DNA of 50,158 nucleotides, from the IMG/VR virus record IMGVR_UViG_3300030098_004123, positions 1 through 50,158 of that record; one strand, given 5' to 3'. This document shows, in pieces, positions 10,886 to 18,567 of the stretch. The position numbers and the translations under genes are program-made. The notes below the pieces were generated by a model. The model searched no databases and was not told the DNA's origin. It was given only the letters and a program-made list of their open reading frames with translations. The first letter of the stretch is position 1, and each line of letters begins with the position of its first letter. Origin of the DNA: a virus.

Positions 10886-11119
10886 CATGTCACCACGTTT
10901 AAGTGAGTTGAACAGGCGAGTGTAGAAAAGTTCACGAAGAGAATCTAACTCTCGCAGGACACTCGTCAAGTTCCTTACAGTTGTCTCTGTAATCTTGTCA
11001 TCATCCTTGATGCCTTTTAGGATATCTGTGCAAGCATCAAGCATGTTCTGCTGATCTTTTGTAATCTTATTGATTGTATCAATCTGTGCTTCTTTTGTGA
11101 TAATTTCAGAATCGGACAT
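10874..11119 (-). CDS. Small helical protein downstream of the helicase (UvsW.1 position)
   Basis: An 81-residue, all-helical protein with coiled-coil spacing in residues 8-75 and no Cys-rich or membrane part beyond one Cys. It begins 14 bases inside the end of the UvsW-type helicase gene, so the two are translationally coupled. In T4 a small helical protein, UvsW.1, follows uvsW in the same arrangement, and this gene takes that place. The link is positional only, because I cannot show sequence similarity. Confidence 0.6.
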   Translation of the reverse strand: MSDSEIITKEAQIDTINKITKDQQNMLDACTDILKGIKDDDKITETTVRNLTSVLRELDSLRELFYTRLFNSLKRGDMLLN

Positions 11120-12491
11120 TGTTTACCTCAAACTTTAATCTTTTATAGTGTCGTATTCTCTGCTTCGAATGGTTTTCCAAGTAAGGAACTCTATCGTAGA
11201 AGTCATAGAAATACATGGTATCTTTACCCTTTGCTTTACGAATACCTCTACCTAAACCCTGCAACGTAGGAACTTCACCTGATAGTCCTCTAGCATTGAT
11301 CATGTGTGTAATCTCATCAATGCTAATGCCAGTTTGCATAACGTTAGTGCCAATTATCGTAGCAGCCTTATCGTCTTTTACGAACTTGTTTATGACATCA
11401 TATCTACTATCAATGTCATCTTTACCTTCAATAGTATAGCAATTACTAATTCTTTCTTGCAAATTTTCAATGTGTTGCAAGTTCTTTACAAGAATTAAGA
11501 TCTTTGCACTGGGGTTGGATCGGTATATTTTTGATACAATATCTTTAATTTTATCATTACGAACATAACAGTTTACCACGTATTGATCATAAATATCAAG
11601 ATAACTTAAATCATTAGCAATCGATGATGCAGGGGTATTATCTACAACTTGAATTATGGGCTTTGCAAGAGCACCGTCTTTAATCAAATCCTCTGCTGTC
11701 CGTGTCGCGTAAACAGGTCCAAAAGCGCCCTCTAATACCATCCTAGCATTAATATCTTTTGCACCCTCCCTAGGTGGGGTGGCAGTAAATGCGAGCCTGT
11801 AGGGTGCATTAGGGAAACTTTCAATGGCTGCTATGGTTGTCTCACCCTTACAAAACTGATGTGCCTCATCAACCATTAACACCTCGGTTTCTTGTAGGTG
11901 TGTATCAATAATACGCTCAATACTTTGAACGGTTGAAAGCATTACCTGCCCTGGAACGTAACCCTCGCCAGAATTATAACCTAGATTTTTTATACCACAC
12001 CTTTTAAAAAACTCATAAGTTTGATTTAGAATTCCTTTCTCCCTAAAAAGGACCACCACTTTTGGATCGTCACCCCATTGAAGTGCAGCAATGCAACCTG
12101 CCATAATTAGAGTTTTACCTGATCCTGTAGGGCTATCAACAATCGCCCTTTTCACTTTAAGGCATTGATGTATGGCTTTTTCTTGATATTCTCGATATTT
12201 GAAGTCACCCACTTCAGGGATAAAAAAATCTTCTGGTTCAGGCTTGTTGTCCCACTCAATATCTCTAACTCCAATTTCATTTAAATCTTTTAGGATTCGA
12301 GATAGGAGTCCTGTTTTAAATTTTCCGTTGGCTCCAAAATATCTCTTCTTACCATCCCACCTTCTATTTTTGTAAGCCTGGGAATACTCATGTCCAGGGA
12401 CGGAGAAAGAATACTTATCTCTCAGTGCTGATATAATCTTAGGATTATCGGTCTCCAAGGTAGACGTTAAGTTACCTACGGTAATCTTCAT
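11106..12491 (-). CDS. uvsW: UvsW-type DNA helicase
   Basis: A 461-residue superfamily 2 helicase that in T4 regresses forks, resolves recombination intermediates and removes R-loops, switching replication from origins to recombination. Motifs seen: an N-terminal 90-residue DNA-binding-type region (as in UvsW), FKYREYQEKAI at 97-107, Walker A PTGSGKT at 121-127, DEAH at 208-211, TATPP at 236-240, and near the end QGLGRGIRK, the arginine-finger motif VI. Length is close to T4 UvsW. It runs leftwards against the structural genes and shares a short divergent promoter region with the gp26-like gene. Confidence 0.92.
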   Translation of the reverse strand: MKITVGNLTSTLETDNPKIISALRDKYSFSVPGHEYSQAYKNRRWDGKKRYFGANGKFKTGLLSRILKDLNEIGVRDIEWDNKPEPEDFFIPEVGDFKYREYQEKAIHQCLKVKRAIVDSPTGSGKTLIMAGCIAALQWGDDPKVVVLFREKGILNQTYEFFKRCGIKNLGYNSGEGYVPGQVMLSTVQSIERIIDTHLQETEVLMVDEAHQFCKGETTIAAIESFPNAPYRLAFTATPPREGAKDINARMVLEGAFGPVYATRTAEDLIKDGALAKPIIQVVDNTPASSIANDLSYLDIYDQYVVNCYVRNDKIKDIVSKIYRSNPSAKILILVKNLQHIENLQERISNCYTIEGKDDIDSRYDVINKFVKDDKAATIIGTNVMQTGISIDEITHMINARGLSGEVPTLQGLGRGIRKAKGKDTMYFYDFYDRVPYLENHSKQRIRHYKRLKFEVNNVRF

Positions 12492-12526: not shown

Positions 12527-13282
12527 ATGACTAAAAATAAAAAAATCATAGAGAAGACTGGGGACCCTAGGGAAGATGCCCTTAATGATCTATTCTCCGA
12601 ATCTGCCGACGATACGATGGTTATCACTGAAATCCCATCAAAAGGTAAATTTTACTCCGATTTCAAGGGAATAGAGGTAAAACCTTTAACTTTTGTTGAC
12701 GAGCAGAAGATATTAAATGCAAAAGATGCCAACCTGGATATTGTGTCAAAACTTTTGGAGAAAACCATCGATGGCGTTGTTGTTGATGAACTTCTATCCA
12801 TGGACAAGATGTATCTTTTAATGAAAGTTCGTGAAGTCTCCTACGGGGATTTATATGACTTTAAAGTTACGTGCCCTGCTTGCTCCACGGAGATAAATAC
12901 CTCTCTTAAGCTCTCAGAGCACTTAAATATGACTCAGGTCCCCGATGATTTAGAGGACCCTAGAAAAGTTACATTACCTAGACTTAAAGTCGAGGCAGAG
13001 GTCAGATTCCCCAGAAGCCGTGAAGAAATCCTACTTTCGGATACGGATGAGATTCATAAGAACATATACCGATTTGTTGTCTCTATCAAAGGTAATCGGG
13101 ACCCCGTATTCATATCCAAAGCACTAAAGAGAATGCATATTCAGGACATAAAAAAGATTGTATCTGAAATATCCAAGTCTGAGTATGGGGTCAACCCAAG
13201 GTTCATCTTTCAGTGCCCCGAGTGCTCGCATGAAGAGACAATGGCTATCCCGATGGACGTAAGTTTTTTTTCAGTGAGCTAA
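12527..13282 (+). CDS. Baseplate hub assembly protein, gp26/gp51-like (zero-frame product)
   Basis: A 251-residue protein of the T4 gp26/gp51 family (T4_baseplate), which is needed to assemble the central hub. Seen: two Cys pairs, CPAC at 116-119 and CPEC at 230-233, probably binding one zinc ion; the N-terminal ITEIPSKGKFY and PLTFVDEQKILNAKD region; and the IKKIVSEISKSEYG helix before the second Cys pair. These Cys pairs and order are characteristic of the family. The gene ends in a T8 run at 13264-13271 with a stop 9 bases later, and a second product by -1 frameshift is likely. Role as a chaperone of the tape measure is inferred from the parallel with lambda G. Confidence 0.85.
   Translation: MTKNKKIIEKTGDPREDALNDLFSESADDTMVITEIPSKGKFYSDFKGIEVKPLTFVDEQKILNAKDANLDIVSKLLEKTIDGVVVDELLSMDKMYLLMKVREVSYGDLYDFKVTCPACSTEINTSLKLSEHLNMTQVPDDLEDPRKVTLPRLKVEAEVRFPRSREEILLSDTDEIHKNIYRFVVSIKGNRDPVFISKALKRMHIQDIKKIVSEISKSEYGVNPRFIFQCPECSHEETMAIPMDVSFFSVS
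13264..13270 (+). promoter_or_regulatory. -1 ribosomal frameshift slippery heptamer
   Basis: T TTT TTT in the zero frame, inside an eight-T run (13264-13271), followed by TCA GTG AGC TAA. After a -1 slip both Phe tRNAs re-pair perfectly and reading continues TTC AGT GAG through an open frame to 13437. This fits the X XXY YYZ rule exactly. The site lies only nine bases before the zero-frame stop, as in other tail-chaperone frameshifts. I did not find an obvious downstream stem-loop by eye. Confidence 0.75.
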
Positions 13283-13437
13283 CTGACAGTTTATCCTCGG
13301 AGGATCTTCTATATCAAGCGTATATATTAATAAATAAGGTAGGCTTATCTTATTCAGATGTGAAGGAAATGACTCAAGGAGAACGTTTGTCATTTATCAA
13401 CTTTTACACTGAAGAAGTGAAGAGACTGGAGAGTTAG
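13270..13437 (+). CDS. -1 frame extension of the gp26-like protein (GT-like fusion)
   Basis: From 13270 the -1 frame is open for 55 codons and ends with TAG at 13435-13437, two bases before the next ATG. Read from the slip, it begins FSELTDSLSSEDLLYQAYIL and ends RLSFINFYTEEVKRLES, a compact helical domain. The fusion would be 248 + 55 = 303 residues. The extension has no upstream start codon of its own (only an internal ATG at 13369), fills the whole gap between two genes, and has coding-like composition. In lambda (G/GT), P2 and Mu such frameshifts make tail-assembly chaperone pairs whose extension binds the tape measure. This is inference; it is not a product I can confirm. Confidence 0.72.
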   Translation, partial: FSELTDSLSSEDLLYQAYILINKVGLSYSDVKEMTQGERLSFINFYTEEVKRLES

Positions 13438-13438
13438 C

Positions 13439-14389
13439 ATGAAAATCAACGGAAATCAAGTTACTACGAGACACGAGAGACCCACTGTTTTGGGTCCGAC
13501 TGCGCTGATAATGTACTTTATCAATGATGGGCAGTATGTGGATCCTTACTCTATCAGCGGAGTTTCAATCTTCGCTGCATCAGATAACCAGTCCCCCAGT
13601 TCAGTTATAAGCTCTGATGGAGAAATTAAGACTGATGTGACGGGTAGTGTTCTTATGCATTTCTCTAATAGTGCAACACTCACTACCAATTCAAGCTTTG
13701 ACGCAAGCAACTACAACCCTGAGGTGGTCGGATCCGCGTCGGGTATTTACAAATTAGATACAGGTAAATTTGCATGTGTACTGGATAAGGCCGCCGTTAT
13801 CCCTAGCGGTGTATTCAACCTATCAGGTGATACCACGATACTTAACACTGTATCCTCTACTGGGGATTACATCGATGTTTGGACAGTTAAACGAGTTGCT
13901 GGTTCAGATCTTGACACAATAATCAACGAGTTCACTCTGACTGAGGATAGATTCTTTGGTGTTACAGAGCCTTTATTATTCCGAGTTGCTACACGGCTAG
14001 AGAATAATTACTTAGTCCTTGGATCAAAAGTTGATCTTAAATTTACTAATGAGTTTACACTTGAGAACGCAAATATAGATCGGAGTATTGTAAATCTTTT
14101 CAAACAGTCTCTAGTAACTGACCCAATGATTGAGATTTACAAAAAGAATCAAGATCGTAACCTTGACGCAAGAGTTGAGGTTTCTGGTTATTCCGCGACT
14201 TCCGGTCTTGTGGATACCACCTCTGAGAACACTGTTATCTTTACATTGGACACGGAAGCTCTTAAGACCCACCCCAAACTTTTAGATGGCACCTTAGGCT
14301 CGATGACAGGAACTTACGTAGTTAGACTTAAGTTTAATGCGTTAAATCAGACTGTCGTATCAAATGACATGGCCTTTATCATACGCTAG
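13439..14389 (+). CDS. Virion-type protein of unknown function
   Basis: A 316-residue, mostly beta-strand protein, rich in Ser, Thr and Asp, with no signal peptide or membrane segment. Motifs such as VWTVKRVAGSDLDTIINEFTL and VIFTLDTEALKTHP suggest several immunoglobulin-like or jelly-roll domains, and the C-terminus (GTYVVRLKFNAL) ends in a strand-rich stretch. It has a GGAG ribosome binding site and starts two bases after the frameshift extension stops. It ends 30 bases inside the converging primase gene. I do not recognise it; a tail or baseplate structural role is the best guess from its neighbours. Confidence 0.65.
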   Translation: MKINGNQVTTRHERPTVLGPTALIMYFINDGQYVDPYSISGVSIFAASDNQSPSSVISSDGEIKTDVTGSVLMHFSNSATLTTNSSFDASNYNPEVVGSASGIYKLDTGKFACVLDKAAVIPSGVFNLSGDTTILNTVSSTGDYIDVWTVKRVAGSDLDTIINEFTLTEDRFFGVTEPLLFRVATRLENNYLVLGSKVDLKFTNEFTLENANIDRSIVNLFKQSLVTDPMIEIYKKNQDRNLDARVEVSGYSATSGLVDTTSENTVIFTLDTEALKTHPKLLDGTLGSMTGTYVVRLKFNALNQTVVSNDMAFIIR

Positions 14390-15310
14390 GTAAGTTAGGT
14401 GAAGTCCGTCTAGCTTACTAGTTTTTTCAGCCTCTGCCCTGAGGAAGTCCCCACCCTTTTTAGTAAGGATCTCATTCCAGTCTTTAAATGGATTTGGGGG
14501 CACGACTGTATATAAATCATCTCTGCGAATCCAGTGTGCTAGGTCCATGAACTTCTTGCGACCTGCAATACCAGGACCATCACTATCAAAGGCACACACC
14601 AACGGACCTGTATACTGACTGAGTTGTAGCATTTGCTCACGGCTCGTAAAACAGCTTAGAGTGGTCGTAGCATTTAATCCCACTGCTTGAAGGCTAAGGC
14701 AGTCAAAGACGCCCTCAGTGATGTATAGAGGCTTCTGAGAGCCATAATCGAAGGGGTATAGAATCTGGGAACTCTTTAAGTTCTTACAATTAAGATATTT
14801 GGGTTGCTCATCTCCGAGCGCACGGGCTTGAAAATAAAAGAGTTTACCGTTTCGGTTGATGAATGGGATAATCAGCCTGCCCCTATATTTACCGCTTGTG
14901 GCGATATAGAACTTAAATTGATCTACGCCACGGGATTGAGGGAAAGGGTGACCTTCTGCAATCTTAAAGTTTTCAACCTCATCCAAATCGGAATCAATTT
15001 GATTTGGGTCAAATTCTTCGAGTGGCCGCCGTCCTTTGTAACCGGCCATGAAGTCCTCGAAGACAAACTTTTCGTAAGCTTCTCGATAGCTACATTTCTC
15101 TAAAATGGCATATAGCTTGAGAAAATTTCCTACCTCACCAGTCTTAAAGCATCTCCACAGACCAGTTTCTGTGTTGATGGACATGTGGCGCTTGTAGTCA
15201 TTATCTATGAATATTGAAGGAACTACTAGTTCGGTATCGTCACTAGAAAGTCTATAATTGGAATGGAACTTGTCCAAACAATATTTTCTAATATAAGAAT
15301 CAGATCCCAT
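14360..15310 (-). CDS. DNA primase, gp61-like
   Basis: Using the ATG at 15310 gives 316 residues (MGSDSYIRK); ATGs at 15316 and 15349 would add 2 or 13 residues. It makes RNA primers for lagging-strand synthesis with the replicative helicase. The N-terminus has CFKTGEVGNF at 54-63, part of the zinc-binding region of T4 gp61-type primases, and the central part has TOPRIM motifs: ITEGVFDCLSLQAVG with Glu199 and AFDSDGPG with D242 and D244. The rest of the fold (QARALGDEQPKYLN) agrees. It is read opposite to the structural genes, and its start codon shares the sequence CATG with the nuclease start on the other strand. Confidence 0.88.
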   Translation of the reverse strand: MGSDSYIRKYCLDKFHSNYRLSSDDTELVVPSIFIDNDYKRHMSINTETGLWRCFKTGEVGNFLKLYAILEKCSYREAYEKFVFEDFMAGYKGRRPLEEFDPNQIDSDLDEVENFKIAEGHPFPQSRGVDQFKFYIATSGKYRGRLIIPFINRNGKLFYFQARALGDEQPKYLNCKNLKSSQILYPFDYGSQKPLYITEGVFDCLSLQAVGLNATTTLSCFTSREQMLQLSQYTGPLVCAFDSDGPGIAGRKKFMDLAHWIRRDDLYTVVPPNPFKDWNEILTKKGGDFLRAEAEKTSKLDGLHLTYLAYDKGHVI

Positions 15311-16094
15311 GTTCATAAATAGTATTAGTGCCTCTAAGAGTGACATCATAGACCAGTGCCTGTGGAAGTACAGACTGAAATATATCTTGAAGCTGCCGGG
15401 ATTCGGTGCGAAGAATGAGGATGCTTTGAACTTCGGGTCTTTTATTCACAAGATATTTGAACTGGGATACCAAGAGAAGGACATCAAGTCCTTGCTAAAA
15501 ATTGCTGAACAAGAACGTTCCACCTATAAGGTGCCATTTCGTGATAATGACAGGATGAAGTCCTGTCTAGAAAATTTCATAATGTGGAATCAGGGATTAG
15601 GGGAGACCATGTCTACTGAACAGACTGTTAATGTTCCCCTGGACGAGAAGCACGATATTAATTTCATAGGGGTGATCGACAGAGTAATCAAGGGCAAAGA
15701 TGGCGGATACTTGGTTATAGACTACAAAACATCCAAAAGAGAAAAAAAGAAAAAGACCCTCATGGATGACAACCAGTTAAAGGGTTACGCATGGGCTATC
15801 CATAAGCTCTATGACGTTCCCTATGATAAGATCTACTGCGCTCACTACTACCCTGTCACTGGTAACTTTGTTGCCGTCAAGTTTGGTAAATTCCAAATTG
15901 ATAGGTGGAAGAAAAAAACAACAGAGAAGGTTTGGCGTATACGAAAGAAGAAGAAAGATGAGTTCTGGGCGCAGGAGAATGTGTTCTGTGACTGGTGTGA
16001 GTATAAAGAGGCGTGCCCTAGATTTCACTCAGACTCAGAGGTTTGCAAAAGGATAGACGAGCAGAAGGAACTTAAGAAGTCAATGAAATCTTAG
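15309..16094 (+). CDS. RecB/Cas4-like PD-(D/E)XK nuclease with Fe-S cysteines
   Basis: A 261-residue nuclease. Motifs in order: SASKSDIIDQCLWKYRLKYI at 7-26 with C17, H47 in FGSFIHKIF, D124 in GVIDRV, the catalytic DYK at 138-140 in YLVIDYKTSKR, QLKGYAW at 156-162, and a C-terminal cluster C227-x2-C230-x5-C236. The four Cys (17, 227, 230, 236) fit the 4Fe-4S clamp of Cas4, AddB and Dna2 nucleases, and the spacing is exact. It probably degrades or trims double-stranded ends in phage recombination or host DNA breakdown. The ATG at 15309 overlaps the primase ATG by two bases. The stop overlaps the next leftward gene by 4 bases. Confidence 0.9.
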   Translation: MFINSISASKSDIIDQCLWKYRLKYILKLPGFGAKNEDALNFGSFIHKIFELGYQEKDIKSLLKIAEQERSTYKVPFRDNDRMKSCLENFIMWNQGLGETMSTEQTVNVPLDEKHDINFIGVIDRVIKGKDGGYLVIDYKTSKREKKKKTLMDDNQLKGYAWAIHKLYDVPYDKIYCAHYYPVTGNFVAVKFGKFQIDRWKKKTTEKVWRIRKKKKDEFWAQENVFCDWCEYKEACPRFHSDSEVCKRIDEQKELKKSMKS

Positions 16095-16454: not shown

Positions 16455-16880
16455 ATGAGTGCTGAATTGACTGGTGAGTTTGGTGAGAGACTAATTCCGT
16501 TCTCTAAAAAAAGAGATTACGAAACTGGCGAATCCTTGCCCCCGAATACCTCAGAAACGAGTTACTTAGGTTTAAGACCAGGAGATTTAATTCAAGTAAC
16601 TTATTCGGGATTTGTTAGGTATGGGCTGGTTCTATCCTCTAGGAGAACTAGCAGTGGTTTATTTCTCTCTACGAGGGGTAACGGATTGGTAAATTTCATG
16701 GACATTTCGGGCTTATCTGACGCTATGTTTTCCTTAATGATAAATAACCTATACAACAACGAGAGTGCTTGCAAGTATCGATCCAGGATAATTCTCAGTG
16801 CTTTTTTGGGTAAGCAAAGTTTTAGAACTTTAAATAAATCTAAAATGACAAACATACTAAAGGTGAAGCTAGATGGTTGA
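16455..16880 (+). CDS. Small protein with SH3-like region, unknown
   Basis: A 141-residue protein. Residues 40-75 read PGDLIQVTYSGFVRYGLVLSSRR, a pattern seen in small SH3-like domains of phage proteins (PGD-x-I-x-Y-x-G ... R-x-x-LVL). The rest has a helical middle (LSDAMFSLMINNLY) and a basic C-terminus. The stop overlaps the start of the tape-measure gene by 8 bases, so translation is coupled. The function is not known; a place beside the tape measure suggests a tail or baseplate component or chaperone. Confidence 0.6.
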   Translation: MSAELTGEFGERLIPFSKKRDYETGESLPPNTSETSYLGLRPGDLIQVTYSGFVRYGLVLSSRRTSSGLFLSTRGNGLVNFMDISGLSDAMFSLMINNLYNNESACKYRSRIILSAFLGKQSFRTLNKSKMTNILKVKLDG

Positions 16881-18567
16881 TGATCCGAACAGGAATAGAG
16901 GAAGAAGGGCAGGGGACGTTGATGGCATGAACCGAAGGAACACTGATGTCTTCACCCAAGACCAGGGTCAGTTTGAGATGCTTAGAGCCCAAGAGAGGGC
17001 AATGGCTAAGTTGGGCGGAGACCTCAGACAGTCAGCTAGACAAATCAAAACAGCATTTGCAAATTTCGCTAACCCAATAAATAGGCTCAGGGATTCTCTA
17101 ACGAGGCTAGATGAGTCTAACCGTAGCGCCTTAAGGATGGGCATTACGACTGAGAAGCTTAGGCAATCAGTGGCCAAAAACTCAGAGATCCTTGATAGAG
17201 GTCTAGTAAGTAATCAAAAATTATTGGATGCCATTAGTCTTAATTTTGAGTCTGGTGTGAGAGTTCAGAATGGCGCACTAATGACTTTGACTGAGGAGAT
17301 GGTTGCGACGGGTCAAGATACTAAAGTCCTAGCACAGCGCAATTCAGACTTGATGCTTTTCACTGGAGACAATACTGCTTCAATTCAGAGTGCCTCGAAG
17401 GTTAATAAGGAGGTTAGTGATAAGTATGGTGTTTCTAACGAAAAGCTCATTAACAGTATGAACACGCTGAGAGCTTCTTTTGAGGAAGCCTCGTTCTTTG
17501 GGCCAGAGGTTACAACTTCTCTTCAAAACGTAGCCACGGAGCTTATCGGTAGGACCGGAGGAAAGGGAGTTGAAGGTGCAATTCAAACTTTACTTGGCCT
17601 TGGGACTGGTGGGTTAGAGACTGTTAGAGCCGCTGCTATGACAGGCGCTATGGGTCTTAGAGAGCGCATTGGGGCGAGACAAGCTGTGGGTCTTGAAGAT
17701 TTTATGCCTATCCTTGAAAATCTTCGAAGAATGGCAGACGAGTCTGGAGGAGGCCAGTTTGGAGCAAATCTTGTGGCTTTTAGGACTGGACTTGAAAAAC
17801 AACAGGTTACAGGCCTTCTCAACCTTGAGAGACAATTGCAACTTAACTTTGAGGTTTCTGACGAAATTAAAAAGACTAATAATGATACCTTTAATAATAT
17901 AAAAAATATTAACGAAAGAGCGTTGAACTTCTATGACGACACGGCACTCAAGATGTTAGATGTTCTTGGCCACATAGATACAGCCCTTTTAGCTGCCATT
18001 GCGGCGGGTAGTCTAGGTGCTGCTGGGGGATTCAACGCGCTTAGAGGTGTGTTTGGTGCTGGCGGGGGAACTGGTATAATGGCTAGAGGTGCGGCTCGAC
18101 TTGGTAGAGGAGCAGCAGTTGCTGGTCTAGGGTACTTAGCGGGAAGTATGATTCCTGAAGATTCTAAGGTAATGGGAGCAAGCACGGGAGGTTTAGTTCA
18201 AGGCGCCGCTATGGGCGCTGGCGTCGGAGCTTTAGTCCCTATCCCAGGGGCAATGCTTATTGGTGCCGGTATTGGAGCTACAATGAGCTACTTTGAGAGT
18301 ATTTCCGAAAATACTGCAAAGAGTGCGAAGGCTGATACTGAACGACTTCGAATGGAAAAGGAAGAAAGAGACATCAAAAGAGCTAGGGCTGCTGCTGATG
18401 ATATAAAGCGTTCTCAAGGATTAATTGATTACTTAAGAAGTAGAGGCATGATACAGGCTGAAGATGCTACCGATGTTTTGAAGGATTTAAGAGCGGAAGC
18501 GGTGTCCAGGAATGCTCGTGATAGATTCAATGTAAACAACACCGATGTTCCTAATGGTGGTAGATAA
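16873..18567 (+). CDS. Tape measure / hub protein, gp29-like
   Basis: A 564-residue protein with a charged, helical N-terminal two thirds (residues 1-370), then a Gly/Ala-rich hydrophobic region at about 375-480 (ALLAAIAAGSLGAAGG, GAAMGAGVGALVPIPGAM), then a helical, charged C-terminus with heptads. This layout, helical rod, membrane-like glycine-rich patch and helical end, is that of tail tape-measure proteins, which set tail length and can enter the host membrane. T4 gp29 has a similar length (590 residues). The gene is in the right place, before tube-initiator and gp53-like genes. Assigned by architecture and context rather than by sequence match. Confidence 0.75.
   Translation: MVDDPNRNRGRRAGDVDGMNRRNTDVFTQDQGQFEMLRAQERAMAKLGGDLRQSARQIKTAFANFANPINRLRDSLTRLDESNRSALRMGITTEKLRQSVAKNSEILDRGLVSNQKLLDAISLNFESGVRVQNGALMTLTEEMVATGQDTKVLAQRNSDLMLFTGDNTASIQSASKVNKEVSDKYGVSNEKLINSMNTLRASFEEASFFGPEVTTSLQNVATELIGRTGGKGVEGAIQTLLGLGTGGLETVRAAAMTGAMGLRERIGARQAVGLEDFMPILENLRRMADESGGGQFGANLVAFRTGLEKQQVTGLLNLERQLQLNFEVSDEIKKTNNDTFNNIKNINERALNFYDDTALKMLDVLGHIDTALLAAIAAGSLGAAGGFNALRGVFGAGGGTGIMARGAARLGRGAAVAGLGYLAGSMIPEDSKVMGASTGGLVQGAAMGAGVGALVPIPGAMLIGAGIGATMSYFESISENTAKSAKADTERLRMEKEERDIKRARAAADDIKRSQGLIDYLRSRGMIQAEDATDVLKDLRAEAVSRNARDRFNVNNTDVPNGGR

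Follow-up and report, generated by a model that had tools for sequence, protein, structure and literature searches.

The 3' end of a gp26-like gene in the window, the whole 50,158-base stretch of an IMG/VR virus record from a marine T4-like myovirus, raises the question of why a run of eight Ts should stand just before the stop codon of this gene, with the -1 frame open behind it up to the next gene. The first-pass annotation answered with a pair of proteins, one short and one extended by a frameshift, and the site itself, its conservation, and the coding selection on the -1 frame all support this answer; thus, the gene very probably makes two tail-assembly-chaperone forms by -1 programmed ribosomal frameshifting, as judged from sequence comparisons (Table 1).

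Table 1. Features of the gp26-like locus and of its presumed client gene, with positions in the window.
Feature	Position	Strand	Remarks
gp26-like ORF, predicted short tail assembly chaperone (TAC-N)	12527..13282	+	251 aa; PF12322, phrog_150, AlphaFold/BFVD
T TTT TTT slippery heptamer, in zero-frame phase	13264..13270	+	part of T8 13264-13271
Invariant block TTTTTTTTCAGTGAGCTAAC, spanning slip site and zero-frame stop	13264..13283	+	20 bases; 16 distinct sequences
-1 frame extension, predicted TAC-C domain	13270..13437	+	55 aa and TAG (13435-13437)
Long-form junction peptide (predicted)			MDVSFF/FSELTDSLSSEDLL (slash, junction)
Putative stimulatory RNA stretch	13274..13340	+	frozen GTGAGCT and CAAGCGTATATA blocks around small hairpin
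Small hairpin ATCCTCNGAGGAT	13293-13305	+	inside putative stimulatory stretch
Candidate tape measure gene, presumed client	16873..18567	+	564 aa; size, composition, position before gp53-like gene

The gp26-like identity that had been proposed for the host gene was borne out by profile and structure searches. Its product matches PF12322 (T4_baseplate, the family of T4 gp26 and gp51) with an E-value of 2.1e-19 and 70.5 bits, against a curated cut-off of 24.5, over profile positions 7-218 of 219, and matches phrog_150 (baseplate hub) at 3.3e-20; an AlphaFold model of the protein (pLDDT 77) matches models of gp26-like and gp51-like phage proteins in BFVD. Searches of the PDB with this protein, by sequence and by fold, gave no significant match, nor did the extension alone match any family in searches of protein families. 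The phage is a member of an undescribed lineage; its large terminase shares no more than about 34% identity with that of any phage compared.

Re-reading of the sequence confirmed the geometry of the site. The zero frame, entered at ATG 12527 on the plus strand, ends in GTA AGT TTT TTT TCA GTG AGC TAA, with the stop (13280-13282) beginning nine bases past the T TTT TTT heptamer, and the T8 is the sole A/T homopolymer of at least eight bases within the window. The -1 frame is open for 55 codons, as had been described, and the next ATG (13439) lies one base past its end. The gap between the two annotated ORFs is otherwise empty, although it counts 156 bases and not the 155 given earlier, a trivial difference. 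The plus strand is almost wholly coding, with 29% of random plus-strand positions in the window opening frames of at least 51 codons, so the open -1 frame alone is unremarkable and its length was dropped as stand-alone evidence. No tRNA gene bearing on the decoding of Phe was found in the window.

What places the slip site beyond chance is its conservation, and not the length of the open frame. Among the close IMG/VR loci that include the 3' end of the gene, the T8, the identical zero-frame stop, and the open -1 frame are kept in 22 of 22; site conservation and selection were measured on 16 distinct sequences, with relatives at 61-78% protein identity to the window. The two observations that the first-pass annotation named as able to overturn its reading—a -1 frame broken by stops in related genomes and a T run of variable length—were sought in these relatives, and the frame was never broken and the run length was constant. 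Across the 16 distinct sequences the block TTTTTTTTCAGTGAGCTAAC is invariant, whereas 239 of 245 third codon positions upstream of it vary. Over the extension, pN/pS was 0.15 in the -1 frame versus 1.7-1.9 in the other two frames, both of which contain stops in every sequence, and the extension peptides of the relatives are 75-89% identical to that of the window; these values indicate that the extension is under purifying selection in the -1 frame only. Comparison of the gap across relatives found both the position of the T run and the -1 protein to be conserved.

A wider, profile-based scan scored 64 further loci. Those at 33-74% identity all carry an in-phase T TTT TTT, and some of the most distant loci that keep the heptamer have seven Ts instead of eight (L087, L088, L090, L091), so that the conserved unit is the heptamer and not the run of eight. 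Farther out, an in-phase T TTT TTC followed by a -1 extension was found in the cyanophages S-RIM8, S-CAM1, P-TIM40, S-H35, and MED4-213, in Desulfovibrio phage 7757, Stenotrophomonas phage Moby, and the Vibrio phages EniLVp02 and V07, and in the jumbo phages Atu_ph07, PA5oct, and slurp01; Rhizobium phage RHph_I9 has T TTT TTG, also with a -1 extension after it. In public annotations of these deep relatives the extension is omitted, entered as a very small "baseplate hub assembly catalyst" (gp51), or listed as a hypothetical protein with its start at an internal or overlapping ATG.

Three other explanations of the locus were weighed against ribosomal frameshifting. Were RNA polymerase to slip on the T8, adding one U or dropping two, the mRNA itself would read into the extension. 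Eight Ts lie at the low end of the run lengths known to cause slippage of bacterial RNA polymerase, and the run is unique in the window and invariant in close relatives; however, the four distant loci mentioned above hold on to the heptamer with a run of seven, and the cyanophages, vibriophages, and jumbo phages have, in this phase, only six Ts and then a C or G. A T6 with C or G in phase suits tandem tRNA slippage and is poor for polymerase slippage. Ribosomal slippage is preferred because the relatives retain the exact heptamer position with T7 or with T6 plus C or G, and the transcriptional alternative is judged improbable. Another reading takes the two frames as one gene, split by a sequencing or assembly mistake within the T run. 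Homopolymers are indeed prone to errors, but more than 20 contigs, drawn from many different metagenomes, share the T8 and the zero-frame stop, and conservation extends to the zero-frame tail (SVS and stop); on this conservation an artifact is scarcely credible and was rejected.

The extension might also be a separate small protein, made from its own start codon or by termination-reinitiation. Relatives in Vibrio, Rhizobium, Moby, and Ackermannviridae VP-1 do have a -1 frame start overlapping the stop (TGATG or TAATG), and the databases place a small "baseplate hub assembly catalyst" at the extension. In the clade of the window, however, none of the 16 distinct relatives has an ATG, GTG, or TTG in the -1 frame between about 43 bases before the zero-frame stop and 55 bases past it, and the first such codon comes 56 to 86 bases past the stop, inside the domain and at a place that is not conserved; the earlier claim that the extension has no start of its own is therefore correct in the sense that no usable one is present. 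A separate protein would further leave the frozen slip site without explanation, and the two parts are fused in T4 gp51. Frameshifting is preferred over reinitiation because the window clade offers no -1 start before these internal ones, and the separate-gene reading, which we consider very improbable, was rejected for this lack of a usable start. The Ackermannviridae phages Vibrio VP-1 (L048) and Salmonella SP1 (L049) carry a -1 extension without an X XXY YYZ heptamer; given the TAATG overlap start of VP-1, reinitiation may take the place of frameshifting there.

Under programmed -1 frameshifting, most ribosomes would read AGT TTT TTT TCA GTG AGC TAA and terminate, yielding the short form of 251 aa, and a minority, with two tRNA-Phe on T TTT TTT, would slip back by one base and translate 55 codons in the -1 frame, giving a long form of 248 + 55 = 303 aa. 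We infer the ribosomal nature of the slip, its efficiency, and the chaperone role in the window phage. An RNA stimulator downstream of the slip site is plausible from the pattern of conservation: synonymous change is 0.22 over the first half of the extension versus 0.86 over the second, the hairpin ATCCTCNGAGGAT is retained in 15 of the 16 sequences, with one double compensatory change (in L021), and the outer stem of the putative structure, in which GTGAGCT would pair with CAAGCGTATATA, is invariant. Since just this one double change was observed, we infer a stimulatory structure here and go no further.

By analogy with lambda gpG and gpGT, the short part of the chaperone would form a coat on the tape measure protein, with the extension bringing in tail tube subunits. 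In the published lambda model, binding to the tape measure protein is a property of both G and GT, and the frameshifted T part attaches to the tube protein (Atkins et al., 2016, PMC5009743); the first-pass annotation, which had described the extension as the tape measure binder, differs from this model. The presumed client in the window phage is probably the 564-aa product listed in Table 1, an identification resting on its size, composition, and position. Profile searches with this product returned no family match, and a homologue lies downstream in relatives also. The candidate gene lies about 3.4 kb downstream of the gp26-like gene on the same strand, not adjacent to it, with a 316-aa gene and others between the extension and it. 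That 316-aa gene (13439-14389) is among the most conserved of the clade, at about 83-90% identity in relatives, and its product had no significant family match. Between 10874 and 16411, the plus-strand structural module is broken up on either side of the chaperone gene by minus-strand blocks, with a helicase-like gene (11106-12491), a primase-like gene (14360-15349), and small ORFs, these functions having been assigned by eye.

In T4, genes 26 and 51 are separate and head-to-head, whereas the window phage has one gene with two frames, and the end of T4 gene 26 has no slippery heptamer, unlike the gp26-like gene of the window with its T TTT TTT. When the gp26 of cyanophages and vibriophages was joined to its -1 extension, the product matched T4-type gp51 from end to end at an hhalign probability of 99.6, and the extension of this set alone matched the gp51 C-terminus (96.5); T4 gp26 matches the short part only, with a probability of 93.6 for the window clade and 99.8 for the cyanophage/vibriophage set. 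The extension of the window clade alone gave a weak match to the gp51 C-terminus (probability 44), which none of 100 column shuffles reached, and it also has a profile match to the out-of-frame extensions of cyanophage gp26. The suggested search for the extension alongside gp26-like proteins thus led to cyanophage gp26 extensions and to the C-terminus of T4 gp51. Because the joined relatives align with gp51 and T4 gp26 aligns with the short part only, T4 genes 26 and 51 have the appearance of a short and a long form, respectively, that became separate genes.

Cyanophage gp51 was described as about a fifth of the normal length and as resembling the C-terminus only (Sullivan et al., 2010, PMC3037559), and these short ORFs would fit the gp26 frameshift extension. 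In the present scan, ORFs named "gp51 baseplate hub assembly catalyst" were seen in cyanophage, rhizobiophage, and vibriophage loci (L031, L033, L034, L046, L047, L051), and they seem to represent the same extension read in truncated form. Current annotation therefore loses the extension, either by giving it no entry or by listing it as a very small "gp51" of its own.

Recoding in the family may not be confined to one direction. At the 3' end of the PF12322 ORF in 12 examined loci (L096, L097, L102, L105-L107, L110, L112, L114, L120, L123, L129), an invariant YTT TGG, resembling the prfB +1 site, lies near the zero-frame stop, and the extension follows in the +1 frame. This extension begins GL(S/T/G)-x-x-Y and is a homologue of the -1 extension in the neighboring T TTT TTC TTC CC branch (hhalign probability 98.6). 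In five other loci, namely those of LIS04 (L026), SP-15 (L027), GXN1 (L036), L127, and L131, the +1/-2 frame carries the extension, YTT TGG and a -1 heptamer are both absent, and all five have CCCGA near the stop. Tentatively, and with slightly more doubt than confidence, we propose that the direction of recoding switched within the family, with -1 on T TTT TTY in the window clade, cyanophages, and jumbo phages, +1 at YTT TGG in another branch, and two genes in T4, that the extension was kept throughout, and that a conserved RNA of about 60-70 bases sets the long-to-short ratio in the window clade. If the +1 branch is confirmed, the direction of recoding would have switched inside one chaperone family. 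With its -1, possible +1, and two-gene solutions, the family would lend itself well to the study of how the ratio of short to long chaperone is maintained.

With respect to lambda G/GT and the P2 and Mu systems, the window differs in that its candidate tape measure gene lies apart from the chaperone gene, and the likeness is claimed without sequence similarity. The lambda slip site is also a sequence other than T TTT TTT. In the Bacillus phage SP-15 and the Listeria phage LIS04 the gene order is tail tube, gp26-like gene, extension, and tape measure, which is the position of lambda G and T. Frameshifting of the G/GT type is widespread in long-tailed phages except T4 (Atkins et al., 2016, PMC5009743). 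For T4-like phages, Vladimirov, Gautam, and Davidson (Virology, 2022) described short and long chaperone genes instead of frameshifting, as cited in the PRFect paper (PMC10885494), and polyT -1 signals in TAC-N genes, as cited in the Adele phage paper (PMC12846349). The system reported there shares with the window a PF12322/gp26-type short form, a polyT -1 site near the 3' end, and an extension homologous to the T4 gp51 C-terminus, and it differs in its heptamer, which is T TTT TTC rather than the T TTT TTT (within a T8) of the window. The 2022 article (Virology 566:9-15) reportedly names genes 26 and 51 and finds frameshifting conserved in several T4-like groups. Since frameshifted chaperones of T4-like phages were published in that year, the mechanism has been known in these phages from then on, and the window is a well-supported new case of it, which widens the range of this documented but easily missed recoding to a marine T4-like lineage not described before.
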